64,000 nt of DNA from an uncultured Halobacteriovorax sp. (GTDB lineage: Bacteria > Bdellovibrionota > Bacteriovoracia > Bacteriovoracales > Bacteriovoracaceae). Every line of letters begins with the position of its first letter. Positions within the stretch are counted from its first letter, which is position 1. The notes beneath the pieces were generated by a model. That model was not told the DNA's origin and ran no database searches. It was given only the letters and a program-made list of their open reading frames with translations. The translations under genes were made by a program, and so were the position numbers. The DNA lies in the NCBI GenBank assembly GCA_913061265.1, contig CAJXVS010000004.1:310001-374000 (forward strand). The letters run 5' to 3'. Of this stretch, positions 1,745-17,152 are shown piece after piece.

Positions 1745-2740
1745 TTACTTCTCTTTTAAGGCCTCAAACCAGGCTTTCGTTTCTCTTTCAATATCTTTAG
1801 AGGACCAAACGGGTGCTGAGGCCCAGTTATCAATATTTTCCAGCATAATTTCAATCCCTTTTTCAAAATCAACTTTAGGACACCAGCCAATACCTTTCCT
1901 AATTTTGGATATATCGGCGAAGGTGCAATCAGGCTCTCCTGGTCTTTTAGGAATAAATTCAATCTCTCCACCTAATAGCTCTACAAGGCGTAGAATTGAA
2001 TAATGGTTTCCAGAACCAATATTATAGACTTCATTTTCTTTTTTAGACTTGCTGGCCATAACAATCGCATCGACAACATCTGTTACAAAAGTAAAGTCTC
2101 TACTCTGCTTTCCATCACCTACTACAGTAAAGGCTTTACCTGCCAGTTTCTGTGCTAGGAAAACGCCAAAGACTGCACCATAAGTTCCCTTAGTTCTAGA
2201 TCTAGGTCCAAAAACATTAAAGAATCTAAGTGAGATCACTGGTATTTTATAAAGCTCTCCCCAATGTAAAACTAAATCTTCACCCATTTTCTTCGTTAAT
2301 GCGTAAGGATACATCGGTGAAATTAAATCCGTTTCTTTTGTTGGAAAGTTCTCAGGTAATCCGTAGCAGGAAGAACTAGCCGAATAAATAAATTTCTTTA
2401 TTTTTCCATGAGCCTTCACCGCTTCTAATACATTTAAAGTTCCAACTACGTTAGCCTTAAAATATTTTTCAGGGTTTTCAACACTCGGAACAATATCTGC
2501 AAGTGCCGCGAGATGAAATACAAATTCGGCATCTACGAGGGCATCTTTCAGCGCTTCTTTATCAATCGTGATGTCGATTTTTAAGATTTCTAAATTATTA
2601 TTCTCTTGGTGTTGCTGAATATTAGTAAGGCTACCTGTAGATAGATTATCTACAATAAGGACACTATGGCCGTCTTTTAGCAATGAATCGACAAGATGGC
2701 TTCCGATAAAACCGCAACCACCAATTACTACAGCCCTCAA
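1745..2740 (-). CDS. NAD-dependent sugar-nucleotide epimerase/dehydratase (extended SDR)
   Basis: An extended short-chain dehydrogenase/reductase of 331 residues. The N-terminal NAD-binding motif is GGCGFIGSHL (GxxGxxG). The catalytic Ser-Tyr-x3-Lys triad shows as SASSSCYG followed by YPYALTKK, and the RFFNVFGPR segment is typical of UDP-glucose 4-epimerase-like enzymes. The start is TTG, overlapping the upstream stop codon by 4 bases, with GAGGAG six bases upstream. Its place after a nucleotidyltransferase suggests it epimerises or dehydrates the activated sugar, perhaps an NDP-heptose. The exact substrate is not determinable. Confidence 0.88.
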   Translation of the reverse strand: MRAVVIGGCGFIGSHLVDSLLKDGHSVLIVDNLSTGSLTNIQQHQENNNLEILKIDITIDKEALKDALVDAEFVFHLAALADIVPSVENPEKYFKANVVGTLNVLEAVKAHGKIKKFIYSASSSCYGLPENFPTKETDLISPMYPYALTKKMGEDLVLHWGELYKIPVISLRFFNVFGPRSRTKGTYGAVFGVFLAQKLAGKAFTVVGDGKQSRDFTFVTDVVDAIVMASKSKKENEVYNIGSGNHYSILRLVELLGGEIEFIPKRPGEPDCTFADISKIRKGIGWCPKVDFEKGIEIMLENIDNWASAPVWSSKDIERETKAWFEALKEK

Positions 2741-3459
2741 GAGCTCTCCTCAGTTTTAAAATACTCTTTGGCCTGAAACAGCCTTTCTTCTGAGTCTATT
2801 GCAAATCTTTTTCCTAATAATTCTAAGCCAAAAAGTGATTCTTCTCTTACTAGGATAGGAAATATATCTTTAGGAAAGTCTACAGGAGAATCGGGTGGAA
2901 TAATACCCAACACGCTTGGGTTTAAACAATAAATGGCCGAGTTTACCCAAGAGTCCCCTTCCCAATCGTTTCGATCTTTATCTGTTGGCCTTTCAATAAT
3001 TTTATTAACAAGCCCACTCTTATCAATTGAGATCATAGAATTAGAGGAAGCTCTTTTATGTAAATAGATACTCGCCTGGGCAGAGTTCTTTACATGAAAT
3101 TCACCGATCCTAGAGAGGTCTTCATCCGTGACAATATCTCCATACAGAACATAAAAATAAGGTTGATCTTTTAGTTCATCTTCAAAGAGCTTTACCCCTC
3201 CAGCGGTTCCAGAGAGGGTCTCTTCTTTTTTGTACTTAATACGAACACCATATTGAGAACCATCTCCAAGCTTATCTACTATTTTTTCGCTAAGGTAGTT
3301 TAAATTGATGTAAATTTCTTTAACCCCGATCCGCTCAAGACTCTCGATTTGAAGTTCAACTATTGATTTATCTCCAATCATTAAAAGAGGTTTAGGAAGT
3401 TCATCTGTATGACTCCCTAATCTAGTACCGCGCCCAGCGCATAATATAACGGCCTTCAT
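2737..3459 (-). CDS. Sugar-1-phosphate nucleotidyltransferase (HddC-like)
   Basis: A 240-residue GT-A-fold nucleotidyltransferase. The N-terminal signature LCAGRGTRLG followed by LPKPLLMIGDKSIVE binds the NTP phosphates and the sugar phosphate. YGDIVTDED supplies a metal-binding Asp, and DWEGDSWVNSAIYCL is the usual sugar-binding segment. The size and the adjacent gmhB gene (ATGA overlap) fit HddC, which makes GDP-D-glycero-alpha-D-manno-heptose from heptose 1-phosphate. Related enzymes use other sugar phosphates and nucleotides, so the heptose assignment rests on context. Confidence 0.85.
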   Translation of the reverse strand: MKAVILCAGRGTRLGSHTDELPKPLLMIGDKSIVELQIESLERIGVKEIYINLNYLSEKIVDKLGDGSQYGVRIKYKKEETLSGTAGGVKLFEDELKDQPYFYVLYGDIVTDEDLSRIGEFHVKNSAQASIYLHKRASSNSMISIDKSGLVNKIIERPTDKDRNDWEGDSWVNSAIYCLNPSVLGIIPPDSPVDFPKDIFPILVREESLFGLELLGKRFAIDSEERLFQAKEYFKTEESS

Positions 3460-4037
3460 AGCGCCTCTAGAGTTTTAATAATTTCAACAAATGATGAAGC
3501 TCTTTTCCAAGGCAACTTATCTTTCTCTTCGATCTTTAGACTAGATTTAATAAGAGTGCTTTCGCTAAACTTACCCTCAAGTAAGATTGTTCTTACTCCC
3601 GCGAGGTTTCCAGCAATAACATCACTTAGACGATCACCTATAAAAAAGCTTTTTGATAAGTCTAGATTCAATTCTTTTGCAGCTTTTAACAACATTCCTG
3701 GCTTTGGCTTTCGGCATTCACAATCAATGCGATAGTCTTTTAAAGTTGCCTCAGGATGATGGGGACAGATATAGAGGCCATCAAATAATTTCTTACCGGC
3801 TAAGGATTCAACTGAATCTAAAATGAACTGGTTAAGCTCATTCATTTCTTTATAAGAAAGTAATCCTCTCGATACCACTGTTTGATTCGTCACTACGACA
3901 ATCTTATACCCTTCACTTTTAGCCCAGCTTAGGAACTTCTCAAGAGAGCTCAGAATGGAAATGTCATCACGCCGGCACAACAAGTGTACGTCCTCGATCA
4001 TCACCCCATCTCTATCTAAAAATATGCATTTTTCCAT
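3456..4037 (-). CDS. gmhB: D-glycero-D-manno-heptose 1,7-bisphosphate 7-phosphatase
   Basis: A HAD-superfamily histidinol-phosphatase-like enzyme that removes the 7-phosphate of heptose 1,7-bisphosphate. It has the nucleophile motif DRDGV, the VVTNQTVVSRG motif, the Cys/His zinc site (CPHHPE...DCECRKPKPGM) and the final FIGDRLSDV motif. The ATG at 4037 places DRDGV near residue 8, as is normal for GmhB. A longer GTG form from 4061 is possible but lacks a better ribosome site. It is the first gene of the minus-strand operon, and gmhA lies 6 kb away in the same locus. The gene for the intermediate kinase is not recognisable nearby. Confidence 0.88.
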   Translation of the reverse strand: MEKCIFLDRDGVMIEDVHLLCRRDDISILSSLEKFLSWAKSEGYKIVVVTNQTVVSRGLLSYKEMNELNQFILDSVESLAGKKLFDGLYICPHHPEATLKDYRIDCECRKPKPGMLLKAAKELNLDLSKSFFIGDRLSDVIAGNLAGVRTILLEGKFSESTLIKSSLKIEEKDKLPWKRASSFVEIIKTLEAL

Positions 4038-4160
4038 TCGTCCCAACGTGTCAAAAGACACTCTATTTTATCTAATGCCATCAGTAATTCAACCCCTGAG
4101 CTATGCTTCTACCTCTTCAGGCGTTATCATTCTAATGCCCTAAATAATCAGGACTTACAT

Positions 4161-5138
4161 ATGAAGATTTTAGTAACAGGTGGTGGTGGCTACGTTGGCT
4201 CATCTTTAATTCCTAAACTTCTAACTTGTGGCCATGAAGTTACAGTCCTTGATCTGTTCCTATACGGGTCAGATGTCCTAGATAAACACCCTCATTTAAA
4301 ATGTATAGCTGGAGATATCAGAGACGAAGCCATATTGAAAAAGTCTCTAGAAGCTGTAGATGCTGTCATACACCTAGCTTGTATTTCCAATGATCCTAGC
4401 TTTGAATTAAACCCCACTCTTGGTAAAGAAGTTAATTTCGATGCCTTTGAACCTCTCGTCAAGCTCTCTAAAAGCGCTGGAGTCAAGCGCTTCATCTATG
4501 CCTCTTCATCAAGTGTCTACGGAGTAAAGTCTGAAAGAAATGTTGTCGAAACGAGTGAACTAGAACCACTCACTGACTATTCAAAATACAAGGCTCTTTG
4601 TGAAAAAGTTTTATCAACCTATCAATCAAAAGATTTTACTACCGTCACAATTCGCCCCGCTACAGTATGTGGGTATTCAAGAAGGCAAAGATTAGATGTA
4701 GTCGTTAATATTCTTACAAATCATGCTTATCATAATAGAAAGATTAAAATCTTTGGCGGCGATCAACTTCGACCAAATATCCATATTGAGGATATGACTA
4801 ATCTCTACGTTCTTTTATTGGATATTGAAGAATCAAAGATCGCAGGCAAGATCTTTAATGCTGGTGGTGAAAACCTCAAGGTGAGTGAAATCGCTGAGAT
4901 TGTTAAACAAAAATTAGGTCCAAACATAGAGTTAGAAAGGACCCCAACCGATGATATTAGAAGCTATCATATATGTTCAGAAAAATTATCTAGAGAGCTA
5001 GGATTCACTCCTTCGAGAGGAGTCCTCGACGCTGTCTCGGATTTAGAAAAAGCCTTTAAAGAAGGGCTACTACCAAATGCCCTTAATGACTCTAAGTACT
5101 TCAATGTTAAATTAATGAATGAAGTAAACCTGAGGTAA
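4161..5138 (+). CDS. NAD-dependent epimerase/dehydratase (extended SDR)
   Basis: A second extended SDR enzyme of 325 residues, distinct from the one at 1745-2740. It has VTGGGGYVGSSL at the N-terminus, the Ser segment YASSSSVYG, and a YxxxK pair in DYSKYK. The segment FGGDQLRPNIHIEDM is typical of sugar-nucleotide epimerases and dehydratases. It starts with ATG after AGGA seven bases upstream and heads a plus-strand operon that runs to 10301. The gene diverges from gmhB, so promoters for both operons must lie in the 123-base gap. Substrate unknown. Confidence 0.87.
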   Translation: MKILVTGGGGYVGSSLIPKLLTCGHEVTVLDLFLYGSDVLDKHPHLKCIAGDIRDEAILKKSLEAVDAVIHLACISNDPSFELNPTLGKEVNFDAFEPLVKLSKSAGVKRFIYASSSSVYGVKSERNVVETSELEPLTDYSKYKALCEKVLSTYQSKDFTTVTIRPATVCGYSRRQRLDVVVNILTNHAYHNRKIKIFGGDQLRPNIHIEDMTNLYVLLLDIEESKIAGKIFNAGGENLKVSEIAEIVKQKLGPNIELERTPTDDIRSYHICSEKLSRELGFTPSRGVLDAVSDLEKAFKEGLLPNALNDSKYFNVKLMNEVNLR

Positions 5139-6715
5139 TGGTGAAAGGTCTGAGAATAGGTATCGATTTTGATAATACTCTTGTTTCTTACGACAAACTT
5201 TTTAAGCAGATAATAAAATCTAAAAAGTGGCCTCTTGCCAAGGGTGAAGCGACTAAGGAGCAGTTAAAAAAGGTTTTACTCAGTTCAGAGCCTAATGATC
5301 TAAAGTGGCAAGAAATACAATCAATGGCCTATGGAACAGAGCATATGCTTAAGGCTAAAAGCTTTGACGGAGCTCTTGAGTGCATAAAGTTTCTAAAGAG
5401 ATCTGGATGTGAAGTCTATATAGTTAGTCACAAGTCTAAGAAGTCCCATTTTGATGAATCAAAAGATTTACATGAGTTCGCTAAGAAATGGATCAAAGAA
5501 AATAATATTCATAAAGTAATCAGTTTAAAAAATATCTTTTTTGAAGAGACTCTCGAAAAAAAGAATAACCGAATAAAGGAAATCAACTGCCATTTCTTTA
5601 TTGATGACTTAGAAAAGGTCTTCAAACACCCCTCTTTTCCTAGTTCCTGTATTCCCATTTTATTTTCTAAGAATAAAATGGATTCATTAGTTACATTAAC
5701 GAATTGGAATCTTATAACTCATTACTTTGAATCTCTTTTCACGATCGATTGCAGAACCTTTAAGGCTTTGCTTAAAAGTGAATTAAAATATATCCGTCCC
5801 TTAAACATAAAAGGAAACAACAGAGTCTTTTTATTAATGAGTAAGGCACATTTAAAAACAGTCTTAAAAGTTTTTGCTACATCAGATAAAAAAGGCCGAG
5901 AAGTTTCCGCATTAAAGTATTACGCAAATGAGGAATCTTTAAACGCTCCACATTTAATCGATGAGCTTAAAGGTCACCCCGCTCTTATAATGGAGTACGT
6001 GGGTGAGCATAAGAGTGATTCTTCCTATGAGGTTGAAAAAGTCGCAGGACCAATCCTCGCCCTTGAACATAAAAATATAAATGAGTTAAATTGGGCTAAG
6101 GACGCAAGAACTTCTTTGGTGGACTATTTCCTCTCTATTGAAAAAAGATTACTAGCGCTAGATAAAAACCTCTTTAAGCACGCGCCTACTCTTCATCACA
6201 AGATCATTAACTTAAAAGAAGTTATTCTAAACTTAGTCCTCTTAGAGTCCAATGATCTTAGCTTGGATCTTAGAAAAAAATTCTCAGCTGACCAACTGAT
6301 CCCAAGTCCATCAGACTTCGGTCTTCATAATATGCTCTTTGATAAAGAGAATTTACACTTTATTGATTTTGAGTTCTTTGGAAAAGACGATCCTGTTAAG
6401 CTCTGGTTGGACTTTCTCTATCACGAAGGCTTTTCACTACCTAAAGATAAGCGAAGCGAAATAGTCAGCTATTATCTAAAAAATTCCAAGATTGAAGGCC
6501 TAAAGCAGAGGTTTAATTTGGTTCAACCTCTGATTCAATTTGAATGGATTCTCATAGTACTAAACGCACTCAACACCGAGCAGCAAAAAAGAAGATCAAA
6601 ACTCTTCCCTCACCTAGATATAGAATCTCTATCCCGATCGAGATTGCAAAGAGCAACTCAAATGCTAAACTCTCTTAGCAAAGAGTTGATCAATTATGGA
6701 ACAAAAGAACTTTGA
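5138..6715 (+). CDS. Fusion: HAD-like phosphatase domain plus APH/choline-kinase-like domain
   Basis: Two unrelated domains are joined in 525 residues. Residues about 1-190 are HAD-like, with motif I GIDFDNTL, a Ser motif (VSHKSKKSH) and an acidic motif FFIDDLEK. Residues about 230-480 resemble the aminoglycoside phosphotransferase/choline kinase fold, with the catalytic loop PSDFGLHNML (D and N kept, the usual leading His replaced) and the Mg-binding IDFEFFG. It overlaps the upstream stop by one base and the transketolase gene by 20 bases, so it belongs to the operon. It could be a sugar phosphatase with a small-molecule kinase; this would suit a locus where a heptose kinase is otherwise missing. 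The function is inference. Confidence 0.75.
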   Translation: MVKGLRIGIDFDNTLVSYDKLFKQIIKSKKWPLAKGEATKEQLKKVLLSSEPNDLKWQEIQSMAYGTEHMLKAKSFDGALECIKFLKRSGCEVYIVSHKSKKSHFDESKDLHEFAKKWIKENNIHKVISLKNIFFEETLEKKNNRIKEINCHFFIDDLEKVFKHPSFPSSCIPILFSKNKMDSLVTLTNWNLITHYFESLFTIDCRTFKALLKSELKYIRPLNIKGNNRVFLLMSKAHLKTVLKVFATSDKKGREVSALKYYANEESLNAPHLIDELKGHPALIMEYVGEHKSDSSYEVEKVAGPILALEHKNINELNWAKDARTSLVDYFLSIEKRLLALDKNLFKHAPTLHHKIINLKEVILNLVLLESNDLSLDLRKKFSADQLIPSPSDFGLHNMLFDKENLHFIDFEFFGKDDPVKLWLDFLYHEGFSLPKDKRSEIVSYYLKNSKIEGLKQRFNLVQPLIQFEWILIVLNALNTEQQKRRSKLFPHLDIESLSRSRLQRATQMLNSLSKELINYGTKEL

Positions 6716-7520
6716 AAAGAGATGCCTTCAAACTCGCTTAGATGTTGTTGAAATGGCGAGACACGGAAGAAGAGGACATATTGCTTCCTCTTTTTCTATC
6801 GTTGAATCGCTTGTCATCCTTTTTGACTATATTTTAAACCTTAATCCCAAGGATCCTACTTGGGATGATCGTGACCGCTTTATTTTGAGTAAAGGCCACG
6901 GATGCATGTCCTACTATTCAGTCTTGGCAAGAAAAGGGTTTTTCCCAACTTCAGAGTTTGAAGGCTTCTGTAAACTAGACGGTAACCTTGGTGGTCATCC
7001 TACAAAAGAAAAGATTCCCGGCTGCGAAGCCTCAACGGGATCTCTCGGGCACGGACTCTCTATTGGAGTGGGTATCGCTCTCAATGCAAAGATTGATAAA
7101 CGAAATTCAAAATGCTTTGTCTTAGTTGGTGATGGTGAGTGCAACGAAGGCTCAATCTGGGAAGCTGCTTTATCCGCCTCTCAAAATAAGCTTAACAACC
7201 TAATCGTGCTAGTTGATTACAACAAGTATCAATCTTACGGGAAAACAGAAGAGGTTTGTTCACTAGAGCCCCTTACTGATAAGTGGAAGGCCTTTGGTTT
7301 TGATACTCATGAAGTTGATATGCAAAAGAGCCCCTTAGATCTAAAAACCTTATTAGAAAACGTTGGCGAGAACTCTGAGAAACCAACAGCCGTCATCTTG
7401 CATACAATAAAAGGCCAAGGTGTAAGCTTTATGGAGGGAGACTTAAAGTACCACCATATGTCTAAGATCACCGATGAAACCCTCGACTCTATTAAGTCAA
7501 CTCTCAATGGTGATAAATGA
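6696..7520 (+). CDS. Transketolase, N-terminal (pyrophosphate-binding) subunit
   Basis: A 274-residue protein matching the first half of transketolase. It has FILSKGHG, GSLGHGLSIGVGIALN and the thiamine-diphosphate/Mg motif beginning GDGECNEG and ending VDYNK. The start lies inside the end of the preceding gene, and its stop overlaps the next gene (ATGA), so the two transketolase halves are translationally coupled. Split transketolases of this type transfer two-carbon units between sugar phosphates. Within a polysaccharide operon they more likely make a ketose precursor for a special sugar than serve the central pentose pathway. Confidence 0.93.
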   Translation: MEQKNFEKRCLQTRLDVVEMARHGRRGHIASSFSIVESLVILFDYILNLNPKDPTWDDRDRFILSKGHGCMSYYSVLARKGFFPTSEFEGFCKLDGNLGGHPTKEKIPGCEASTGSLGHGLSIGVGIALNAKIDKRNSKCFVLVGDGECNEGSIWEAALSASQNKLNNLIVLVDYNKYQSYGKTEEVCSLEPLTDKWKAFGFDTHEVDMQKSPLDLKTLLENVGENSEKPTAVILHTIKGQGVSFMEGDLKYHHMSKITDETLDSIKSTLNGDK

Positions 7521-8452
7521 GAAAAAGAGGACTCTTAGAAATATTCAACCTAGCAAAAAAGAATAATAAGATTATCTTTCTAGGGTCTGACTTAGGTCAT
7601 AAGACTTTGGATGACTTCAAAGAAGCATGCCCTAATCAATTCTATATGGAAGGAATAAGCGAACAAAACATAGTTGGAATGGCCGCAGGCCTGGCTCAGG
7701 AAGGTAAGATAGTATACATCAACACCATAGCTACTTTTTTAACACGAAGATGTTTTGATCAAATAGCCATGGATGTCGCTACTGGAAATCACAATGTAAG
7801 GCTTTACGCTAATGGTGGAGGTGTTGTATACGCTCCTCTTGGGCCAACTCATCTAGCCGTAGATGATATTGCCCTCATGAGAAGTATTCCTGGCATGACC
7901 ATTGTCCATCCCTCCGACTCTGAAGAGATGGCACGATTAATAAAGGCCTCTGAGAAATGGCAAGGACCTATCTATATAAGGCTTTGCCGAGGTGGTGAAA
8001 CTCAAACCTCTCAAGCAGAAAACGGTTTTGAAATTGGTAAGGCCATTACTCTCAAAGAATCGGGAGAAATTACTATCTGCGCTACAGGAGTGATGGTTTA
8101 TAGGGCCTTAGAGGTGGCGAAGAAACTTGAAGAAGAATTTAAGATTCAAGTTGGAGTAATAAATATTCATTCGATTGCTCCTTTAGATAAACCAGCTATT
8201 GAAGAAGCTGCAAAGCGTTCATCTCTTATCGTAACCTTTGAAGAACATAATATAACAGGTGGACTAGGTTCTGCTGTTGGAGAAGTTCTGTCGGAGTCAC
8301 TCCTCCCTAATAGACCTTCTTTTAAAAGATATGGGTTTCCAGATTGTTACCCTGATAAATACGGTCAACAGGATTTAATTATTTCTCATTATGGTTTAGA
8401 TACCGAAACTCTTACAAAGAAAGTATCCAAGCTTTATAGGAGTCTAAATTGA
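7517..8452 (+). CDS. Transketolase, C-terminal (pyrimidine-binding) subunit
   Basis: A 311-residue partner of the preceding gene. The conserved catalytic Glu that activates the thiamine lies in FYMEGISEQNIVGMAAGLA. GPTHLAVDD and the C-terminal transketolase domain (INIHSIAPLD, VTFEEHNITGGLGSAV) complete the enzyme. Together the halves total 585 residues, somewhat shorter than single-chain transketolase (about 660) and normal for split forms. Its stop overlaps the TTG start of the oxygenase gene. Confidence 0.93.
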   Translation: MRKRGLLEIFNLAKKNNKIIFLGSDLGHKTLDDFKEACPNQFYMEGISEQNIVGMAAGLAQEGKIVYINTIATFLTRRCFDQIAMDVATGNHNVRLYANGGGVVYAPLGPTHLAVDDIALMRSIPGMTIVHPSDSEEMARLIKASEKWQGPIYIRLCRGGETQTSQAENGFEIGKAITLKESGEITICATGVMVYRALEVAKKLEEEFKIQVGVINIHSIAPLDKPAIEEAAKRSSLIVTFEEHNITGGLGSAVGEVLSESLLPNRPSFKRYGFPDCYPDKYGQQDLIISHYGLDTETLTKKVSKLYRSLN

Positions 8453-9231
8453 ATCTAAAAGACTCTTTTCAATCTTCTAAAGAAAAAGAAATATCTGATG
8501 CCTTTCTTAAAGATGGATACTATATCTTCAAATTAGAAGACAATGAGGCTTTAGACCATTTAAAGTCAAAGTTGATTGATTCGATTTTAGGAACTGAAGA
8601 ACTAGAAAAGATTCACCTCTCGACAAGTACAAGCGATATAAACAAAGTTCGTCTCGCGTCTATTTCGAAAATAAACTCTTCAAGAGACTTCTCACCTTCA
8701 CTCTATCATTTAGCAAAGCCTGTTCTCGACATTCTAGTTGGCAATGAGCTTGTAATGCAAAGAACAGTTAATCTAAGTATCCAAATGCCAAACGATGATA
8801 GCTCTCTCTTACCGATCCATACAGATGTTTGGTCTGGAAACTCTCCTTATGAAGTAGTCTTATGGTTACCTTTTGTTAACTGCTCTAAAACTAATTCAAT
8901 GTTTATTCTACCAAGAGAAAAGTCCCTCTCCGTCTTAGAGAACTATTCTGAGTACAAAGACTTAACAACTGAAGAGTTCTTCAAGAGAGTTGAAAGTGAC
9001 CTCCTCTTTTTGGATGTTCCTTACGGAAGTGCCGTCATCTTTAGTCATACTCTTTTTCACGGAAATAGAACTAATAGTGAGCCTGATACAAGAGTAAGTA
9101 TAAATGTCCGGTTTAAATCAGTCCTAAGCCCTTATGGTAGCAAGGGGCTTGGAGAATCATTTAGACCCATATCTCTAAAGCCTGCAACTCAAATAGGGCT
9201 TGATTACCAAGATAGGAACAACTCCCTATGA
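8449..9231 (+). CDS. 2-oxoglutarate/Fe(II) oxygenase of the sporadic carbohydrate cluster type
   Basis: A 260-residue phytanoyl-CoA-hydroxylase-like protein. The iron site can be read as HTD (in LPIHTDVW) plus a distal His in SHTLFHGNRT. The following Arg in DTRVSINVRF would bind 2-oxoglutarate. The start is TTG, overlapping the transketolase stop (TTGA), and its own stop overlaps the next gene (ATGA). From memory, families of this kind (sporadic carbohydrate cluster 2OG-Fe(II) oxygenases) occur beside LIC12192-like proteins in Leptospira and other polysaccharide loci, exactly as here. The likely role is oxidation of a sugar or sugar-linked group; the substrate is unknown. Confidence 0.8.
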   Translation: MNLKDSFQSSKEKEISDAFLKDGYYIFKLEDNEALDHLKSKLIDSILGTEELEKIHLSTSTSDINKVRLASISKINSSRDFSPSLYHLAKPVLDILVGNELVMQRTVNLSIQMPNDDSSLLPIHTDVWSGNSPYEVVLWLPFVNCSKTNSMFILPREKSLSVLENYSEYKDLTTEEFFKRVESDLLFLDVPYGSAVIFSHTLFHGNRTNSEPDTRVSINVRFKSVLSPYGSKGLGESFRPISLKPATQIGLDYQDRNNSL

Positions 9232-10301
9232 GAAAGGCTCTACGAGGATACATTGTTAGTGGGAATACTTTAAATCCATTTATACCCCAGCGGGTTCAAA
9301 ACCTTGTGATACGAGATTACTGTGAATCAAACTCATTAGACTTTCTCCTTAGTTCAACGGAGTTTTCATTTGAAGGCTCTGATCAAACGTTAAAATCTTT
9401 ACTTAAAAAAGACGAGAGTAAGGATGGAATCGTTTTCTATTCGATTGATCAATTTATATTCTCTCAAAAGATACTTTCCTCTATAGAAGAGTATCTCTCT
9501 GTAGGTAAAGAAGTTCATTTTGCTCTTGAAGAAAAAAAATTAGCCTCAAAAAAAGATCTTAAAGATTTATCAGGCTTAATTAAAATAAAAGCCCTTTCCA
9601 ATAGTCCTTCTCAAGCATCATCAATATCTGATTCTCTCTTAAGGATAAAAGATTTTGTTACCCCTCTACACAAAAGTTCCAAGAGAGATTATCTAGAAAG
9701 AGTAACCTCCTTCAACAAAGCTGATTGCGCCATCATTGCTAAAGAATTTGGAAAGGACTACTGGGACGGAGAAAGACAGTTTGGCTACGGTGGATATAGC
9801 TATGATGGTAGATGGAAAGAGGTGGCTGAGAAGCTGATTAAGAACTACGCCCTCAATAATAAGTCATCTGTTTTAGATATTGGCTGCGGAAAAGGTTACT
9901 TACTTTTTGAATTAAAAAAAATCCTTCCTGATTTAACAATATCGGGAATAGATATATCAGACTATGCCATCAAAAATGCCAAAGAAGAAGTTAAGGAGTT
10001 TTTAAGTGTTGGTGACGCCAGTAAACTTCCTTACAAAGATAAGCAATTCGACTTAGTCATTTCAAATACTACTTTTCATAATTTCACGATTGATAAACTT
10101 TTTATGTCTCTTGCAGAACTCGAAAGGGTAAAGAAAGGCTCTTCGTGGATCTGTGTAGAGTCTTACAGAAATGAACTTGAGAAAATGAACCTACTTTATT
10201 GGCAACTGACTTGCGATTCATTTTATTCTACTGAGGAATGGATCTGGTTATTCAATAAGGCTGGATACTCTGGTGATTTTGAATTTATCTATTTTGAATA
10301 A
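9228..10301 (+). CDS. Fusion: LIC12192-like carbohydrate-cluster protein plus SAM methyltransferase
   Basis: Residues about 1-140 (beginning RKALRGYIVSG, then PQRVQNLVIRDYC and LLSSTEF) resemble the small LIC12192-family protein of sporadic carbohydrate clusters, whose biochemical role I do not know. Residues about 175-357 form a class I methyltransferase with motif I VLDIGCGKGYLL, an acidic motif II (SGIDISDYA) and motif IV (FDLVISNTTFHNF). The upstream oxygenase is the usual partner of the N-terminal family. The fusion implies that the methyl transfer acts on the same intermediate. The 3' end overlaps the convergent gmhA gene by 13 bases. Confidence 0.75.
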   Translation: MRKALRGYIVSGNTLNPFIPQRVQNLVIRDYCESNSLDFLLSSTEFSFEGSDQTLKSLLKKDESKDGIVFYSIDQFIFSQKILSSIEEYLSVGKEVHFALEEKKLASKKDLKDLSGLIKIKALSNSPSQASSISDSLLRIKDFVTPLHKSSKRDYLERVTSFNKADCAIIAKEFGKDYWDGERQFGYGGYSYDGRWKEVAEKLIKNYALNNKSSVLDIGCGKGYLLFELKKILPDLTISGIDISDYAIKNAKEEVKEFLSVGDASKLPYKDKQFDLVISNTTFHNFTIDKLFMSLAELERVKKGSSWICVESYRNELEKMNLLYWQLTCDSFYSTEEWIWLFNKAGYSGDFEFIYFE

Positions 10302-10888
10302 GTATAATAACTTCCAATAAGATGATTTAAGATACTATGGATGTCTTCTACTGGTCCAAACTCCTTATCACCGGTTGGAATATACAAAGAATGATCAGAG
10401 ATCTCTTTCAGTATTCCTCCAGAGAACCCAACGAGAGAAAAGGTTTTGCCACCATTAAGCTTCACGAACTCAACGGCCTTTACAAGGTTAGCAGAGTTCC
10501 CAGAGGCAGAAATAGCAACGAGGACGTCACCTTTTTCCATTAATGATTCAAGCTGCTTCTCAAAGATATACTCATAACCATAATCATTTGCGATAGCGGT
10601 TATCTTAGAATTATTTTCACACAAGCTAATGGCCTTAAGATGCTTAAGATTTTTATTCTTAAGCACGCCCATATCATTAGCAAAGTGTGATGCCGTTGCA
10701 GCAGAGCCACCATTTCCAATAAAGAAAACAGTCTTGCCATTCGCTCTAGCCTCTTCAAAGGTATCCACTAATAGCTTAATCTTTGCCGTATCGATCTTAG
10801 AGAAGAGCTCTTTCAAATAATCAAAGTAACGAGATGAAAATTCTTCAATCCCATTAGATCCTTCAAAGTCTTTTTGAACTCTATTCAT
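10289..10888 (-). CDS. gmhA: SIS-domain phosphoheptose isomerase
   Basis: A GmhA/DiaA-type sugar isomerase that converts sedoheptulose 7-phosphate to D-glycero-D-manno-heptose 7-phosphate. The phosphate-binding loop FIGNGGSAATASHFANDM and the ISASGNSANLVKA segment are diagnostic, and the C-terminal HSILNHLIG helix is typical. I prefer the ATG at 10888, with GGGG five bases upstream and 14 bases after the galE stop, over the in-frame ATG at 10924 inside galE, which has no ribosome site. It pairs functionally with gmhB in this locus and, inferentially, with the split transketolase that could supply its ketose substrate. Confidence 0.87.
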   Translation of the reverse strand: MNRVQKDFEGSNGIEEFSSRYFDYLKELFSKIDTAKIKLLVDTFEEARANGKTVFFIGNGGSAATASHFANDMGVLKNKNLKHLKAISLCENNSKITAIANDYGYEYIFEKQLESLMEKGDVLVAISASGNSANLVKAVEFVKLNGGKTFSLVGFSGGILKEISDHSLYIPTGDKEFGPVEDIHSILNHLIGSYYTYSK

Positions 10889-10902
10889 AAAATCCCCAAG
10901 CC

Positions 10903-11877
10903 TTACTTTAGCTTCTTTTCCCATTCATACGCGGTCTTCACGATTAACTTAAGGTCGTCATACTTTGGCTGCCAGCCTATCGTCTTTCTAATTTTATCAG
11001 CAACAGAAATAAGCTTCTCGGCGTCTCCTGCTCTTCTTTCGATATTCTCAGCAATGATTTCAACCCCAGTAACTTCTCTAACAGCATCTATAACTTCATT
11101 CACACTAAAACCATGCCCATACCCGCAATTCATAATTTGAGACTCACCACCATTTTTTAAGTAAGAAAGTGAATCAACATGGGCCTGAGCTAAATCATCA
11201 ACATGTATATAGTCTCTGACACAAGTTCCATCAGGAGTATTATAATCAGTTCCAAAGATCGCCATCTTCTCACGTTTTCCAGAAGCACATTCCGAAGCAA
11301 TCTTAATCAAATGAGTAGCATTTGGCGTACACTGCCCAATTTTCAGATCAACATTAGCGCCAGCAACATTAAAATATCTAAGCACAACAAAGTTGATATC
11401 TGTTGCAGCTGCAATATCTCTTAACATATTTTCCGTCATTAACTTCGAAGTACCATAAGGATTAATAGGAACAGTGATTGACTCTTCAGTACAAACACCA
11501 CCTTCAAGATCTCCATAGACGGCTGCCGTCGAAGAGAAAATAAAATTATTACACTTATGTTTCACGCACATAGAAATGACGTTCAATGAGTTTTCCGTAT
11601 TATTTTTATAATACTTAATCGGATCCGTAACACTTTCAGGAACCACAATACTTCCAGCAAAGTGAATGCAAGCTTCAAACTTTTCTTTTTCAAAAAGCTT
11701 ATCAATAGCTTCAGTATTTTCTAGGTTCTCTTCCACGTGCCTGCCATAAAGCATGGCCTCTTTACGCCCAGTCGATAAGTTATCAACAACAACTATTTCA
11801 TGCTCTCCTGTCATCCCTAACAAGTTCAAAACATGCGATCCAATATAGCCGGCTCCTCCGGTCACTAATATCTTCAT
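10903..11877 (-). CDS. galE: UDP-glucose 4-epimerase
   Basis: A 324-residue cytoplasmic enzyme that interconverts UDP-glucose and UDP-galactose. It has VTGGAGYIGSHVL for NAD binding, FSSTAAVYG with the catalytic Ser/Thr region, and the YxxxK pair in NPYGTSKLM. RYFNVAGA and DGTCVRDYIHVDDLAQAH are hallmark GalE segments that separate it from the other two SDR proteins in the locus. It is transcribed ahead of gmhA and probably supplies UDP-galactose for surface glycan assembly. Confidence 0.93.
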   Translation of the reverse strand: MKILVTGGAGYIGSHVLNLLGMTGEHEIVVVDNLSTGRKEAMLYGRHVEENLENTEAIDKLFEKEKFEACIHFAGSIVVPESVTDPIKYYKNNTENSLNVISMCVKHKCNNFIFSSTAAVYGDLEGGVCTEESITVPINPYGTSKLMTENMLRDIAAATDINFVVLRYFNVAGANVDLKIGQCTPNATHLIKIASECASGKREKMAIFGTDYNTPDGTCVRDYIHVDDLAQAHVDSLSYLKNGGESQIMNCGYGHGFSVNEVIDAVREVTGVEIIAENIERRAGDAEKLISVADKIRKTIGWQPKYDDLKLIVKTAYEWEKKLK

Positions 11878-12039
11878 TACTACTTCCTCAATATCTAAGA
11901 TTGGTTAATTTAGTATCCCAATTCTACCCTTTTCCATGAAATTTATCATTGTTTTCAATAACTTACGCGGCGCCAAGATCTGTAAATATTTCAAATTACT
12001 ACACTTCAATTTATAATCAGATATTATGCGAAGCGTAAT

Positions 12040-13335
12040 ATGAAAATAAAGATCTTCCTACTTTCAGCCTTGATCATCAGCGGGTGCTCAAAAAACAACT
12101 CAGAAGCTCCACTTCCTGGCCCTGTTCTTTCGGAGGAGTCTAGCCAACCTCTTATTACTGAAAGACTTAAGAATGCGAAAATTGATTACACTAAAGGCCT
12201 TGAAGACTTTACTAATTCAAAAGAGAAAAAATTAGCAGAAAGAGAGAGCCTCTTTATTGCTTTCTTAGATAAAGCAAACCTATATAAAAACCTGCTCTCA
12301 ACCACACAAGATACGACCAACATAAAGAAAGTCGAGCTAGAACTAATACGTCAAAAGTATCAGCATGAGTTAATTTTAACCGATATCAAGAAACTAAATG
12401 ATTCAAAGGAAGCCTTAGATGAGGCCCTTCAGAACTTAGAAACCATAAGTTCTAAAACTGATGAATTCATCCTAACGAAGATAACAGATCTAGATCTAAG
12501 AGATTCTCTTCTCGAAGAAATATCTACTTATAAGAACACAACTCGATTCCTTACACTCAGCTTTAAAAAAGAATTCGATTTAAATGAAATCATCAAATTT
12601 GAGAATAAGGTTAACGAATTAGAGTTGATTGAACAAAAATTCTCTGACTATTTTCGGTATAAGGAAGTCCTAGACCAATCTGAACATGCGCTAGAGAAAG
12701 TCGATTTCTCTTTCTTATCAGACGATCATACGACTGCAGCCTTAACTCACGAAGAAGATTTTTTTAAGGCCCTAAACCAACATATAGAATCACTTGATAC
12801 TTTTAAAAAAGATGCCTCTATCTACTTAAATAGAAAAGATATTGGATTTATAAAATCTTCAAAATCAAGAGTAACTCAAACTTTATCTCTACTGAATGAA
12901 CTTAGAGAAACTCAAAAGAATATTAAATCGGATTTAAAACGAATCGAGTATTTAGGCTATATTTTCCCAAAAGATTTATCTAATATTCCTAAAGAAAAAC
13001 TTAAATGGAAAGAGCAAGAAGTTTATATTTTCACAGGTGTTCTTCCAGAGAAAATCAATTGGAAAATCGGTTTTCATCGAGTAGACCTCTTGTTTAACAG
13101 TAACTATCCAGTAGAAACTATTAAAGAATTTTCTCTCTTTGAATTTGTAAATAAGAAGACCTATTCCACTTTTGAGAATGTATTCGGTACAGCCTTTAGT
13201 CGTCTTATAGTTTATAGAACAACCTATGATGAGTTACTTCCAAAGCATATAGACGAAAAATATTTCAAAATGGGCCTCTTGATAGGGTTAACCTACCAAG
13301 AGGTTGATGACTATATCGAATCTATACCTTTCTAA
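12040..13335 (+). CDS. Coiled-coil lipoprotein of unknown function
   Basis: I do not recognise this 431-residue protein. It has a short lipoprotein signal peptide ending in the lipobox ISGC (Cys at residue 16), with a Ser/Lys/Asn-rich linker after it. The body is Lys/Glu/Leu-rich and largely helical, with long heptad-like stretches between about residues 60 and 320. A more globular C-terminal part follows. It is probably anchored in the outer or inner membrane facing the periplasm. It stands alone on the plus strand and overlaps the convergent small secreted protein by 4 bases. Confidence 0.7.
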   Translation: MKIKIFLLSALIISGCSKNNSEAPLPGPVLSEESSQPLITERLKNAKIDYTKGLEDFTNSKEKKLAERESLFIAFLDKANLYKNLLSTTQDTTNIKKVELELIRQKYQHELILTDIKKLNDSKEALDEALQNLETISSKTDEFILTKITDLDLRDSLLEEISTYKNTTRFLTLSFKKEFDLNEIIKFENKVNELELIEQKFSDYFRYKEVLDQSEHALEKVDFSFLSDDHTTAALTHEEDFFKALNQHIESLDTFKKDASIYLNRKDIGFIKSSKSRVTQTLSLLNELRETQKNIKSDLKRIEYLGYIFPKDLSNIPKEKLKWKEQEVYIFTGVLPEKINWKIGFHRVDLLFNSNYPVETIKEFSLFEFVNKKTYSTFENVFGTAFSRLIVYRTTYDELLPKHIDEKYFKMGLLIGLTYQEVDDYIESIPF

Positions 13336-13730
13336 TTCTGTCCTTTAAGAATCTCATCTGCCCTTAATATGGTACCATCCTTTAAAGTTATCTCTTCAAT
13401 ATTATTAAAGTCCGTCATGATTTTTAATTTCATCATTTTTATAATTTTATCAGATCGTAAATTACTATTAAGGAAACCATTAATTTTAGGTCTAGCATCT
13501 TTTAACTCGAAGTTAGAAGTTCCACTTACTCTTTCAAGCTTAAGCAGTTCTATTCCACTCGTAACTCTACCTGACCCACCACCACCTGAACCAATATCGG
13601 TAAGAACTCTAGAACTTCCATCACCTGCATTAACACTTTCAATGAAGTATCCTCCACCTCCAGCATCAATTCCTTGAGCTTGTGTTGTATAGCTTAAAAT
13701 TAATGCTAATGTTATTGCTATTTTTTTCAT
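13332..13730 (-). CDS. Small secreted protein with Gly-rich segments
   Basis: A 132-residue protein with a clear signal peptide (residues 1-18, ending TTQAQ) and two glycine clusters (DAGGGGYF and GSGGGGSG). A charged C-terminal half follows. No enzyme motif or membrane helix is present after the signal. It starts 2 bases after the stop of the HTH regulator gene, so the two are co-transcribed and this protein may be a regulated product or part of the same function. Function unknown. Confidence 0.65.
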   Translation of the reverse strand: MKKIAITLALILSYTTQAQGIDAGGGGYFIESVNAGDGSSRVLTDIGSGGGGSGRVTSGIELLKLERVSGTSNFELKDARPKINGFLNSNLRSDKIIKMMKLKIMTDFNNIEEITLKDGTILRADEILKGQN

Positions 13731-13731
13731 T

Positions 13732-14496
13732 TTATACCTCTTTGTAGTTCAAGAAATCTGAGACTAGTCCTACGAAGTACTTGTTCTCACCCTTGTATTG
13801 TTCACTTTTTAAAACATTATCAACCTCTTCGTAGGTCTTTTTTAAAATATTGGTTATTACTCTTGCTCCTTCTTCACTAAGGCCTGTCGTTTGGATAGAT
13901 AAAAAGTTCTTCATTTTATTTATAGTCTCAGACTGTGAACAACTTTCAATCGTGTTTAGTAAAACTTTCTTAGTTGTTTCTTGAGAAAATTTTACTTTTT
14001 GATCAGTGCCTTTAATGATTCCTTCGTTAACAGTTAAAATATTTTTCTTTATTAAGTGCCTTAGAGTCCTTACTCCTTTGGCCCCTACCTCTCTTTCTAT
14101 CTCGCCAAAATTAGTACCTTTATCAGTGTAAGCTAGGACCATTATTAAAAAAGTATCTGGATCTTCAAAATACTTTTCCAACTCAAAATCAACTCTGCTG
14201 TTGTCAAGATTATGACTGTAGATCTTCTTATAAGTCTCAGAAATATCCGGATAGTACTCTTCAATAAAAGACAGCAAATCGTTAGCCTCTCCAGTCCCTC
14301 TCAGAACCTTTAAAACCTGATCAATTGTCGGGTTTCTGATGTCTTCATTTTCGATCCTATTAAGTGTCGAACTAGACATCTTAAATCTCTTAGCTATTTG
14401 CTGTGAGCTCAGGGCCGGGTGGTCCTTTTTGTAATGCTTCACTCGCCGTCGCAACGCTTGGCAGAGATCCTCATCCTGTAGTGCAAATGTGCTCAT
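13732..14496 (-). CDS. XRE-type helix-turn-helix regulator with C-terminal winged-helix-like region
   Basis: Residues about 15-75 hold a lambda-repressor-type HTH (SSQQIAKRFKMSSSTLNRIE). Residues about 110-160 look like a second, winged-helix-like DNA-binding or dimerisation segment (GTNFGEIEREVGAKGVRTL), followed by a helical tail. I choose the ATG at 14496 because AAGGGG lies five bases upstream; the in-frame ATG at 14514 has no such site. The upstream gap contains four YCCC-N5-GGRA inverted repeats, which makes autoregulation plausible. The architecture parallels the two-gene pair at 20846-21636. Confidence 0.8.
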   Translation of the reverse strand: MSTFALQDEDLCQALRRRVKHYKKDHPALSSQQIAKRFKMSSSTLNRIENEDIRNPTIDQVLKVLRGTGEANDLLSFIEEYYPDISETYKKIYSHNLDNSRVDFELEKYFEDPDTFLIMVLAYTDKGTNFGEIEREVGAKGVRTLRHLIKKNILTVNEGIIKGTDQKVKFSQETTKKVLLNTIESCSQSETINKMKNFLSIQTTGLSEEGARVITNILKKTYEEVDNVLKSEQYKGENKYFVGLVSDFLNYKEV

Positions 14497-14595
14497 GCAT
14501 CCCCTTTGGTTCATTCGTAATTATTTATTGATGTAAGAGATTAAGTATAATTTGGGAAACACTAGTTCAAACGTATTGAAATAATTACCTTTTTG

Positions 14596-14705
14596 GCCCG
14601 CCACGGGACAATCATGTCTACCTGTAAGAAAGAGAATCAAGTACTTATATATCCCGCATTGGGATACGTCCCATCTCGGTGGGTAAGCTCTGTCCCACAG
14701 AGGAA
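14596..14705. promoter_or_regulatory. Cluster of four YCCC-N5-GGRA inverted repeats (putative operators)
   Basis: Four sites with the same five-base centre lie between the divergent HTH regulator and histidine kinase genes: GCCC-gccac-GGGA (14596-14608), TCCC-gcatt-GGGA (14652-14664, extended to TATCCC/GGGATA), TCCC-atctc-GGTG (14669-14681, weak) and TCCC-acaga-GGAA (14693-14705). Matching perfect palindromes occur at 31088-31102 and 58430-58448. The arrangement looks like operators for one dimeric regulator. Which protein binds is inference; the adjacent XRE-type regulator is the first candidate. Confidence 0.5.
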
Positions 14706-14766
14706 TCTTTTCGACCTTTAGGCAAATCCCTTCTAAGAATTTTCTACAACATTTACAGGGGATAAT

Positions 14767-15420
14767 ATGAATTCAGGAATTACGAATGAGGTTTTGGCGC
14801 TTATACACGATATCAACTCACCGCTTTGTGCACTTAAGGGACTAATTAAGACAGATCAGAGGGATCAACAACTAGAGCATGAAGCTTATAGAAAGTTTTT
14901 TGACTTGGCAGGAAAGCTAAAGGCTCACTTTCATTTGGACTTAAATGAAGAGCCCAGTTATTTGCTCGATTCACTAGAGCTATCATTGAGCCATAAAGAA
15001 ATGGAGGACCCTAAGGTAGTCTTCTCTTTGAATGCCCAACCAAGCCTTAGAGACTTAATCTTTTCATTTGACCAGGAAGACTTTGAAAGAGCCGTGTCCA
15101 ACATCTTAAATAATGCCGTTGAGGCTGGCGCTACCCAAGTCTTAGTGAAAGTTGGCTGCAATAGAGATGAGATACAAATAAAGATCACTGATAATGGAAT
15201 TGGATTTTATGCTAGCGATATTCAGCAGGTTCATAAGAAGAAGGGGTTTACGACTAAGACGGAAGGCTCTGGAATAGGTCTCTCTTCGAGTATGAATTTT
15301 ATGAATAAAGTTGGAGGAAGCTTAAAGATTCTTTCAACTCCATATATTGGTACGAATATCATAATGTGTTTTCCAAAAAGTTTCTTTGATTCTCTAGACT
15401 ACGGTCCTTTCGCTAGTTAG
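14767..15420 (+). CDS. Small cytoplasmic sensor histidine kinase
   Basis: A 217-residue protein with a kinase core and no sensor or membrane segment. The H-box reads LIHDINSPLCALKGL near residue 12, where the His would be phosphorylated. The ATPase part has the N-box (NILNNAVEAG), the G1 box (ITDNGIGF) and the G2 region (GFTTKTEGSGIGLS). The ATG follows CAGGGG. No response regulator is adjacent. The orphan sigma-54 response regulator at 29789-31072 is a candidate partner because both promoter regions share the same inverted repeat. That pairing is inference. Confidence 0.85.
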   Translation: MNSGITNEVLALIHDINSPLCALKGLIKTDQRDQQLEHEAYRKFFDLAGKLKAHFHLDLNEEPSYLLDSLELSLSHKEMEDPKVVFSLNAQPSLRDLIFSFDQEDFERAVSNILNNAVEAGATQVLVKVGCNRDEIQIKITDNGIGFYASDIQQVHKKKGFTTKTEGSGIGLSSSMNFMNKVGGSLKILSTPYIGTNIIMCFPKSFFDSLDYGPFAS

Positions 15421-15429
15421 ATTATAAGG

Positions 15430-16032
15430 GTGGAACTCCCAGGAATAAAAAACATCAATACACCAAACTTACTTCCCAAGGATGGAGAGGTTGAGTTTAA
15501 CTCTCACTTTATAGAAGCTGATCATCTTCAAGAATTGATTGAGCAGACAAAGTGGACTCAAGATAAGATGAATATGTTTGGTAAAGTCGTAGACCTTCCA
15601 AGACTAACTGCTTGGTATGGCGACCCAGAGGCTTCATATACCTACTCTGGAATTACGAACAATCCCCTAGCATGGACGCCCCTTCTTCTTAACCTAAAGA
15701 AAGAAATTGAGACCTACACTGGTTCAGAATTTAATAGTGTTCTCTTGAATTACTACCGCGATCAGAGTGATCACATGTCTTGGCATAATGATGATGAAAA
15801 AGAATTAGGCCATCAACCTGTCATTGCATCTCTGTCTTTTGGGGAGCCCAGGCTTTTTCAATTTAAGCATTTTGAGGATAAAACCATTGAGAAGATTAGC
15901 GTCTCCACAGAGGGAGGTTCCCTTATAATTATGAGAGGTGAGACCCAAAAGTATTGGCGTCACAGAATTGCCAAAACTTCTTTACCTATGGGGCCGAGGG
16001 TTAACCTAACCTTTCGAAAAATTTCCGTTTAA
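15430..16032 (+). CDS. AlkB-like 2-oxoglutarate/Fe(II) dioxygenase
   Basis: A 200-residue homologue of AlkB-family enzymes, which oxidatively demethylate alkylated nucleic-acid bases. The iron site reads HND in MSWHNDDEKELG with the distal His in RHRIAK. The 2-oxoglutarate-binding Arg pair is in GPRVNLTFR. The segment VLLNYYRDQSDHMSWH and SLSFGEPRLFQF are typical of the AlkB/ALKBH2 type. A GTG start is assumed. It follows the kinase gene by 9 bases and may be co-transcribed. Whether it acts on DNA or another substrate is not visible. Confidence 0.85.
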   Translation: MELPGIKNINTPNLLPKDGEVEFNSHFIEADHLQELIEQTKWTQDKMNMFGKVVDLPRLTAWYGDPEASYTYSGITNNPLAWTPLLLNLKKEIETYTGSEFNSVLLNYYRDQSDHMSWHNDDEKELGHQPVIASLSFGEPRLFQFKHFEDKTIEKISVSTEGGSLIIMRGETQKYWRHRIAKTSLPMGPRVNLTFRKISV

Positions 16033-16189
16033 TTTCAATGGCCTGCCCTTCTCCAATAAATCTCCTTTAATGGCAGTGTCCAAATAACTTCCCTTTGAAA
16101 ATCAGGTAATTAGGCTTATAATCTAGTGTATTATTTATTTAGGCTTACCCTGTGTAACTTTAATAACCGCATGGGGTGACGAGGAAATT

Positions 16190-17143
16190 ATGAAAGTTGT
16201 AGAGCATCTGGCGAACGCCAAAAAAACCCCCTTTAGTTTTGAAATTGTTCCACCTCCAAGAGGAAGAACTGTTAAAGATATCGTTGATATTGTTAAGGCC
16301 ATTCAACCACTTAATCCACCGTGGATTGATGTGACCGCTCATTCAGCTGGTGCTTACTATAACGAAAAAAATGATGGTTCCGTAGAGAGAAGAATTTATA
16401 AAAAACGCCCAGGGACTGTTGGTATCTGTGGAATTATTCAAAACCGTTTTAAGATCGATACTGTCACTCATTTACTTTGCCAAGGTTTTACAAAAGAAGA
16501 AACTGAAGATGCCTTGATCGAGCTTAATTACTTAGGAATTGAAAACGTCTTGGCCCTTAGAGGTGATGGACTTAACTATAATAAAGTCGTCTCTAAAGGA
16601 CGCTCTCAAAATAGATACGCTATTGATCTTGTAGAGCAAATCTCAGAATTGAAGGCCGGTAAGTTTGTTGATGATATTGCAAACTCTCAACCATTAGATT
16701 TCTGTGTTGGCGTCGCTGGTTATCCAGAGAAACATTTTGAAGCTCCCAATTTAAATCAAGATCTCCAGTGGCTTAAGAAAAAAGTAGATGCTGGCGCTGA
16801 GTATGTCACAACTCAAATGTTTTATAATAATCAACACTACTATGACTTTGTGACAAAATGCCGTGAGATTGGGATCACTGTTCCTATCATTCCAGGACTA
16901 AAGATTCTTAAATCAATTAAACAATTACAGTCACTACCAAGAAATTTTTATATTAACTTTCCAGATGACTTTGTTGAAGAAGTTATGGCCAACCCTGATC
17001 ATGTTAAAGAGCTTGGTAAGAAATGGGCCATGCAACAAGTCGAAGGGTTGTTAAACTTTGGAGTTCCTGATGTTCATTTTTATATTATGAACGATACGGA
17101 ATCGGTAGTTGACGTCGTTTCACATTTTCAAAAACAACAATAA
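16190..17143 (+). CDS. metF: 5,10-methylenetetrahydrofolate reductase
   Basis: A cytoplasmic flavoenzyme that makes 5-methyltetrahydrofolate, the methyl donor for methionine synthase. The 317-residue length is close to E. coli MetF (about 296). Diagnostic segments are SFEIVPPPRG at the N-terminus, NVLALRGDG, and the flavin/folate-site stretch AGAEYVTTQMFYNN, then PIIPGLKIL. It sits 9 bases upstream of metH, forming a methionine-synthesis operon. I saw no SAM, SAH or cobalamin riboswitch in the 157 bases upstream. Confidence 0.95.
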   Translation: MKVVEHLANAKKTPFSFEIVPPPRGRTVKDIVDIVKAIQPLNPPWIDVTAHSAGAYYNEKNDGSVERRIYKKRPGTVGICGIIQNRFKIDTVTHLLCQGFTKEETEDALIELNYLGIENVLALRGDGLNYNKVVSKGRSQNRYAIDLVEQISELKAGKFVDDIANSQPLDFCVGVAGYPEKHFEAPNLNQDLQWLKKKVDAGAEYVTTQMFYNNQHYYDFVTKCREIGITVPIIPGLKILKSIKQLQSLPRNFYINFPDDFVEEVMANPDHVKELGKKWAMQQVEGLLNFGVPDVHFYIMNDTESVVDVVSHFQKQQ

Positions 17144-17152
17144 GAGTGATCT

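Follow-up and report, generated by a model that had tools for sequence, protein, structure and literature searches.

Which sugar is made by an operon that combines a split transketolase, a 2-oxoglutarate (2OG) oxygenase, and a LIC12192-type protein? These genes lie at positions 4161-10301 of a 64,000-nucleotide stretch of DNA (here called the window) from an uncultured Halobacteriovorax sp., and their surroundings are those of a polysaccharide locus in a genome of approximately 4 Mb. The answer we favor is that the operon would build a C-branched sugar destined for a surface polysaccharide and decorate it, a tentative reading to which we give not quite even chances. In sequence terms, it looks like an undescribed route in which the transketolase would attach a two-carbon branch to a sugar of the cell surface.

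Six plus-strand open reading frames (ORFs) make up the operon (4161-5138, 5138-6715, 6696-7520, 7517-8452, 8449-9231, and 9228-10301). Consecutive ORFs overlap by 1, 20, 4, 4, and 4 bases, which confirms the original prediction of genes overlapping end to end from position 5138. The gene families named in that prediction also stood, but the gene at 5138-6715 had not been described, and the fusion encoded at 9228 had not been stated. On inspection, ORFs in the 10 kb 5′ of the operon read as a sugar-phosphate transferase, glycosyltransferases, and a polysaccharide deacetylase. When we compared gene order with that of related bacteria, the same order was found again in many unrelated genomes, which indicates that the grouping is not due to chance. 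The conserved set, referred to below as the cassette, comprises genes for a short-chain dehydrogenase/reductase (SDR), a HAD/APH protein, the N and C chains of the transketolase (TkN and TkC), the oxygenase, LIC12192, and a methyltransferase, in this order. The operon is real, conserved, and different from an ordinary O-antigen set, and the enzyme family assignments are firm. A dedicated sugar operon with a probably unusual product and a sporadic spread, as had been proposed, is likewise supported.

The first gene (4161..5138, + strand) codes for an SDR (PF01370) that we propose to be a nucleotide-sugar C4 dehydrogenase resembling Cj1427. A profile built from ten orthologues scored 190 bits against 6vo6/6vo8 and 126 bits against the next solved structure, both figures referring to about the same general SDR family. 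We take 6vo6 to be Cj1427 itself. Cj1427 is a C4 dehydrogenase acting on GDP-heptose (PMC10680097). The window's SDR shares 52-61% identity with its orthologues in other cassettes. We searched for the SDR profile in 291 genomes of the phylum and then inspected the neighborhoods. Of the 22 strong loci, 19 carry a split thiamine diphosphate (ThDP) enzyme near the SDR, and two of the three that do not are on short contigs. The ThDP enzyme is not always a transketolase. In six loci (L036, L118, L120, and L124-L126), the pair is instead like the alpha and beta chains of pyruvate dehydrogenase (PDH) E1 (228-292 bits for alpha and 208-295 bits for beta). In two of these clusters, the SDR is 59% (L118) and 57% (L120) identical to that at 4161, which is as close as the SDRs of transketolase clusters come. 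Moreover, the order in L036 (E1alpha, E1beta, oxygenase, LIC12192, methyltransferase) parallels the order in the window (TkN, TkC, oxygenase, LIC12192, methyltransferase). Judged by their families, a presumptive ketone-forming sugar oxidoreductase lies close to a C2-transferring ThDP enzyme in these 19 loci. That the strict neighbor of the transketolase is a Cj1427-like SDR suggests that a keto sugar receives a C2 branch.

The transketolase itself is split into N and C halves, as had been predicted and as NCBIfam and Pfam matches bear out. The N chain (6696..7520, +) holds the ThDP diphosphate-binding (PP) domain (PF00456, 143.8 bits) and scored 222.8 bits against its counterpart (6yak) in the split transketolase from Carboxydothermus. 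The C chain (7517..8452, +; PF02779 and PF02780) scored 192.7 bits against 6yaj. The architecture is that of a split transketolase, with the PP domain on one chain, the pyrimidine-binding (Pyr) and C-terminal domains on the next, and the ThDP motif GDGE..EG. In our alignment, the ThDP and catalytic residues are kept in the cassette transketolases. Where the canonical enzyme has ..DGPTH, however, the window's C chain reads YAPLGPTH. The position of Escherichia coli Asp469 is occupied by Leu in all cassette TkC chains (15/15; motif [AG]PLG), and the positions of Ser385 and His461 are likewise altered in these 15 chains. The same genome carries a housekeeping full-length transketolase (C1:605130), in which Asp469 is kept. 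The roles of His461 and Arg358, and the mapping of residues onto the cassette enzymes, are our assumptions. Residues S385, D469, and R520 shape the acceptor and phosphate site of transketolase (PMC5073344).

Other split transketolases were also observed. The same genome has a second pair (L069 8280-11622; C3, ~139.9-143.2 kb) with the motif YPDSGPTH, which adjoins a B12-type radical S-adenosylmethionine (SAM) gene, a PhyH-like oxygenase, two DegT aminotransferases, and a cupin. Both transketolase types occur within one locus in L031, L032, L038, and L127. A further group (L163, L165, L166, and L168) has (A/S)LG(M/I)SH and lies beside a DegT aminotransferase, without the SDR; polysaccharide loci probably employ split transketolases here in yet another way that is still unexplored.

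The gene at 5138..6715 (+) codes for an N-terminal HAD phosphatase fused to a C-terminal APH-type kinase (PF01636). In the AlphaFold2 (AF2) model, which has a predicted local distance difference test score (pLDDT) of 85, the HAD part matched 3bwv with a Z score of 18.4 and the APH part matched 3tdw with a Z score of 18.6. The model shows both domains as intact, and the catalytic residues D10, D12, T14, K142, D156, D157, K244, D393, N398, and D410 are invariant. HAD/APH is present in 19 of the 20 cassette-transketolase loci versus none of the 6 E1-type loci (Fisher p 3e-5); one of the 19 (L160) was assigned by its N subunit, as the motif was not seen in its C subunit. Since HAD/APH follows the transketolase loci and not the E1 loci, it probably belongs with the transketolase version of the reaction. 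Nucleotide-sugar activation was considered as its role and dropped, because the protein tracks the transketolase form and co-occurs with HldE.

The oxygenase (8449..9231, +) is a 2OG-Fe(II) enzyme of the PhyH-like family TIGR04324 (SpoChoClust_2). The original prediction had proposed profile searches for this protein and for the one at 9228, and both matched: the oxygenase scored 300.6 bits (curated cutoff, 150) and the LIC12192 domain scored 92.8 bits (cutoff, 55). The HxD...H triad and Arg of the oxygenase (H124, D126, H204, and R215) are invariant in 12 homologues, and its match to phytanoyl-CoA dioxygenase (2a1x) had an E value of 0.0026. We collected oxygenases in 129 genomes of the order, as well as in a set of bacterial and archaeal genomes, and called the surrounding genes. 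Among the 129 genomes, LIC12192 was found in exactly the 14 with an above-cutoff oxygenase, always beside an oxygenase. A mirror-tree analysis gave a correlation of 0.68 for oxygenase and LIC12192, just under the 0.72 for TkN and TkC; nearly all pairs correlate, so this evidence is weak. Paralogous pairs also occur, in which a second oxygenase and a divergent LIC12192 share a cluster with an ordinary pair (L029 and L064). The divergent LIC12192 branch has an FYS(S/C)LD-type start (L029 10372-11561, L047 1897-2340, and L064 4915-6136). In the Actinomycetota (L057, L059, L060, and L062), distant relatives of the oxygenase are followed by a protein of ~151-157 amino acids with a LIC12192-like layout, in a context unlike polysaccharide synthesis (amidase-like and GntR-like neighbors).

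The last protein of the operon combines the LIC12192 domain (TIGR04323; 9228..9632, +; residues 5-122; 95.3 bits in an independent search) with a class I SAM-dependent methyltransferase domain fused behind it (9813..10301, +; PF13847, 76 bits, residues 211-346). The same fusion is found in L030, L034, and L038-L041, and LIC12192 is fused to an aminotransferase in L032 and L035. Searches of Protein Data Bank sequences with the LIC12192 single sequence and profile found nothing, and the fold was seen only by structure and profile-profile comparison. An AF2 model of 9228-9632 built from 22 sequences had a pLDDT of 90 and a predicted template modeling score (pTM) of 0.82. With Foldseek, the five best matches were serine recombinase catalytic domains (probability, 1.00). 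In the VIA comparison, the model matched 4bqq with a Z score of 13.9 over 131 residues (root mean square deviation, 3.9). The top 24 VIA entries were serine recombinases or IS607-type relatives, with Z scores of at least 9.0, and the first clearly unrelated entry had a Z score of 8.4. Using hhalign, LIC12192 scored 87.4% against 24 recombinase domains, versus at most 1.2% for seven unrelated control families and at most 1.0% for 20 column shuffles. The invariant Gln24 of LIC12192 aligns with the conserved Gln in the first helix of the recombinases. Conversely, the aligned catalytic Arg positions hold Arg in none of the 22 LIC12192 sequences, and the Ser position holds Ser in 2 of the 22. Which columns of the alignment are the catalytic positions is our assumption. 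The recombinase DNA-binding domain is also absent: stand-alone LIC12192 homologues are ~119-156 amino acids long, and here the methyltransferase follows. As modeled, LIC12192 is a serine-recombinase fold without the catalytic residues. We infer that it holds the substrate for, or partners with, enzymes acting on the same sugar.

The cassette is present in Bdellovibrionota, Elusimicrobia, Nitrospinota, Alphaproteobacteria, and one phage contig, and named carriers of its relatives include Bacteriovorax and Halobacteriovorax, from which the genome is placed as one of Bacteriovoracales type. Its recurrent neighbors are a GalE-like epimerase that we call EpB, GmhA, HldE- or HddC-like enzymes, and sugar nucleotidyltransferases. 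Two genomes of one genus (L116 and L128) carry the SDR, HAD/APH, TkN, TkC, and methyltransferase genes without oxygenase and LIC12192; the latter pair is therefore an add-on to a core. The phage copy was found in IMG/VR (L169, IMGVR_UViG_3300047552_000915), and the oxygenase had no match in GenBank phages and plasmids; L175 and L176 were grouped with this contig. Its block (7251-19991) begins with EpB, HldE nucleotidyltransferase, GmhA, the SDR, a methyltransferase, and an endonuclease of the HNH/AP2 type inside the operon. TkN, TkC, oxygenase, LIC12192, a methyltransferase, a gene judged terminase-like by inspection, HldE kinase, and an SU10-type portal follow. The phage transketolase shares the YAPLG motif. 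Elsewhere on the contig are a DnaB-like helicase and, among the later genes, a GT2 glycosyltransferase. That these genes travel as one block speaks for a pathway complete in itself, heptose-type enzymes included, and its target could be the virion, DNA, or the host surface.

In the scheme that we propose, the GmhA-, GmhB-, and nucleotidylyltransferase-type enzymes of the locus (HldE elsewhere) would supply a nucleotide sugar, probably a heptose, which the SDR would oxidize to a 4-keto sugar. The split transketolase (6696-8452) would transfer a hydroxyacetyl C2 unit from a ketose (phosphate) to the ketone, giving a branched tertiary alcohol, and HAD/APH would serve the transketolase form of this step by preparing the donor or relocating a phosphate. 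The 2OG oxygenase would then oxidize the branched product with LIC12192 as its obligate noncatalytic partner or adaptor, and the methyltransferase would methylate it. The interchange of transketolase and E1 fits branching directly, as it would correspond to hydroxyacetyl versus acetyl branches. The fuller version of this reading is a polysaccharide- and phage-borne pathway in which either enzyme branches a 4-keto nucleotide heptose and the oxygenase depends on a dead recombinase-fold LIC12192; we regard it as possible but rather doubtful.

Several observations weigh against branching. The cassette transketolases retain the Arg for the donor phosphate, as well as a basic residue at the R520 position, so that they may still use phosphorylated substrates. 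Other split transketolases of the phylum, beside aminotransferases or radical SAM genes, also lack Asp469, and those beside aminotransferases lack the SDR. Loss of Asp469 is therefore not specific to the cassette and is a sign of an altered acceptor rather than of branching itself. The SDR could act as an epimerase or oxidize another position, and in one locus (L123) it occurs with no ThDP pair. Nor does the branching scheme explain HAD/APH, which is absent from the phage, the exception among the 20 transketolase loci. Furthermore, the precedent for branching by split transketolases is itself unproven in vitro, and the branched residue of the glycan is a prediction.

Alternatively, the transketolase could extend a sugar chain. 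It would then form a heptulose or octulose phosphate, which GmhA would convert to an aldose phosphate for activation by the kinase, phosphatase, and nucleotidylyltransferase; the SDR, oxygenase, and methyltransferase would modify the resulting unbranched higher sugar. Aldose phosphates are normal transketolase substrates, HAD and kinase domains suit sugar-phosphate traffic, and many cassettes, that of the phage among them, contain or adjoin genes for GmhA, GmhB or HldE, and nucleotidylyltransferases. However, many cassettes are without a nearby GmhA. That the transketolase would supply a ketose phosphate to GmhA, the idea implicit in the original prediction, fared less well: the genome already has a separate full-length transketolase, the Asp, Ser, and His positions of the acceptor site are remodeled in the cassette enzymes, and homologous clusters use PDH-E1-like enzymes instead. 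The latter could not feed GmhA, because their products would presumably be 1-deoxy-ketoses that GmhA does not isomerize. Chain extension is less coherent than C2 branching, and we consider it unlikely.

The acceptor of the C2 unit may also be an amino-keto sugar, a non-sugar ketone, or the polymerized glycan, with the oxygenase and methyltransferase finishing the product. DegT aminotransferases in the same module (L031, L032, L035, L037, and L117), of which two form fusions with LIC12192, fit this, as does the pairing of related split transketolases of the phylum with aminotransferases. The cassette in the window, however, has no aminotransferase, and the constant partner is the SDR beside nucleotide-sugar genes; such an acceptor seems improbable to us. 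That the pair is a central-metabolism enzyme placed in a polysaccharide locus by chance is hardly credible: it does resemble a functional split transketolase, but a separate full-length enzyme exists at C1:605130, the cassette is conserved across phyla, and the acceptor site is altered.

The genes flanking the operon support the predicted link with heptose-type enzymes, although none of the GmhA, GmhB, and HddC equivalents in the locus scored above its equivalog or subfamily cutoff. On the minus strand, a GmhA-like phosphoheptose isomerase (10289..10924; TIGR00441, 121.6 bits, below the cutoff of 209) has 1tk9, a phosphoheptose isomerase, as its nearest solved structure (96 bits). A GmhB-like HAD-IIIA phosphatase (3456..4061, -) scored 128.7 bits with TIGR00213, below the cutoff of 149.6, and above the cutoff with TIGR01656. 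Beside it lies a sugar-1-phosphate nucleotidylyltransferase (2737..3459, -; PF00483, 107 bits) resembling MurU, HddC, and mannose-1-phosphate guanylyltransferase, which reached 62.7 bits with the HddC model NF049965 (below the cutoff of 300); its nearest solved structures are 8yre and 7x8j, and its orthologue lies within the same operon in L039. EpB (1745..2740, -; GalE profile, 184 bits, below the cutoff of 262.3) recurs in 8 cassette loci and the phage, and GalE, a UDP-glucose 4-epimerase, is encoded at 10903..11877 (-; TIGR01179, 446 bits; cutoff, 262). Promoter and terminator scans of the locus gave results no better than shuffles, and a sharp island edge was not found in the base composition around it. 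In three related genomes (L030, L034, and L037), aroA-, aroB-, and aroC-like genes directly adjoin the cassette, which is probably plain synteny. An aminoshikimate-type route was rejected, as the ones examined scored like normal shikimate genes and this neighborhood is confined to the three related genomes.

Among known systems, the locus resembles the Leptospira LIC12192-type "sporadic carbohydrate cluster," with TIGR04323 and TIGR04324 above their cutoffs in adjacent genes of a polysaccharide locus; this likeness rests on the TIGR04323 family name and the profile match. Compared with the descriptions of these families, LIC12192 is here fused to a methyltransferase and has a fold assigned. 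We found no published function for TIGR04323 (LIC12192) or TIGR04324 in the literature searched, and a literature search for Leptospira O-antigen loci with a transketolase found nothing relevant. With the operon, these orphan families, the former named after Leptospira, gain a testable biochemical setting. The Campylobacter jejuni GDP-heptose pathway consists of GmhA, HddA, GmhB, HddC, and Cj1427, in a paper without mention of transketolase (PMC10680097). The window shares a Cj1427-like SDR and GmhA-, GmhB-, and HddC-like genes with it; in contrast, an HddA (GHMP) kinase was not recognized here, and transketolase, oxygenase, and LIC12192 are added.

ThDP enzymes acting on keto sugars provide a further comparison. 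YerE makes the yersiniose of lipopolysaccharide (PMC4753412), and E1-type alphaKADH2 enzymes (AviB1-AviB2-type) add C2 branches to keto sugars of antibiotics (PMC12247030). The proposed route shares with both a ThDP enzyme on a 4-keto nucleotide sugar, and its sister clusters have an E1-like pair. However, YerE is of the decarboxylase type and both use pyruvate, whereas the operon at 4161-10301 has a transketolase. C-branched sugars follow the principle of a C4-ketone-forming SDR beside a ThDP enzyme that transfers C2 units, which favors branching. Split transketolases have been proposed, without proof, to transfer hydroxyacetyl units to keto sugars in Streptomyces antibiotics (miharamycin and amipurimycin); the 13 candidates counted in a 2025 review all come from Streptomycetes, with none in polysaccharide loci, and ketone-accepting split transketolases are wanted as biocatalysts (PMC12247030). 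The cassette transketolases with the PLG motif are concrete candidates for this use. As in the miharamycin and amipurimycin clusters, a split transketolase lies beside a keto-sugar-capable oxidoreductase; unlike in those, the setting is a Gram-negative surface-polysaccharide locus with heptose-type genes, HAD/APH, TIGR04324, and LIC12192. If the proposed route is correct, sugar C-branching by transketolase- and E1-type ThDP enzymes extends from actinomycete antibiotics to Gram-negative surface glycans, and a DNA recombinase fold has been recruited into sugar metabolism. LIC12192 resembles phiC31 integrase and gamma-delta resolvase in fold (Z scores of 9-13.9 to 24 recombinase entries) but, unlike the serine recombinases, it has neither the catalytic residues nor the DNA-binding domain and is an obligate neighbor of an oxygenase.

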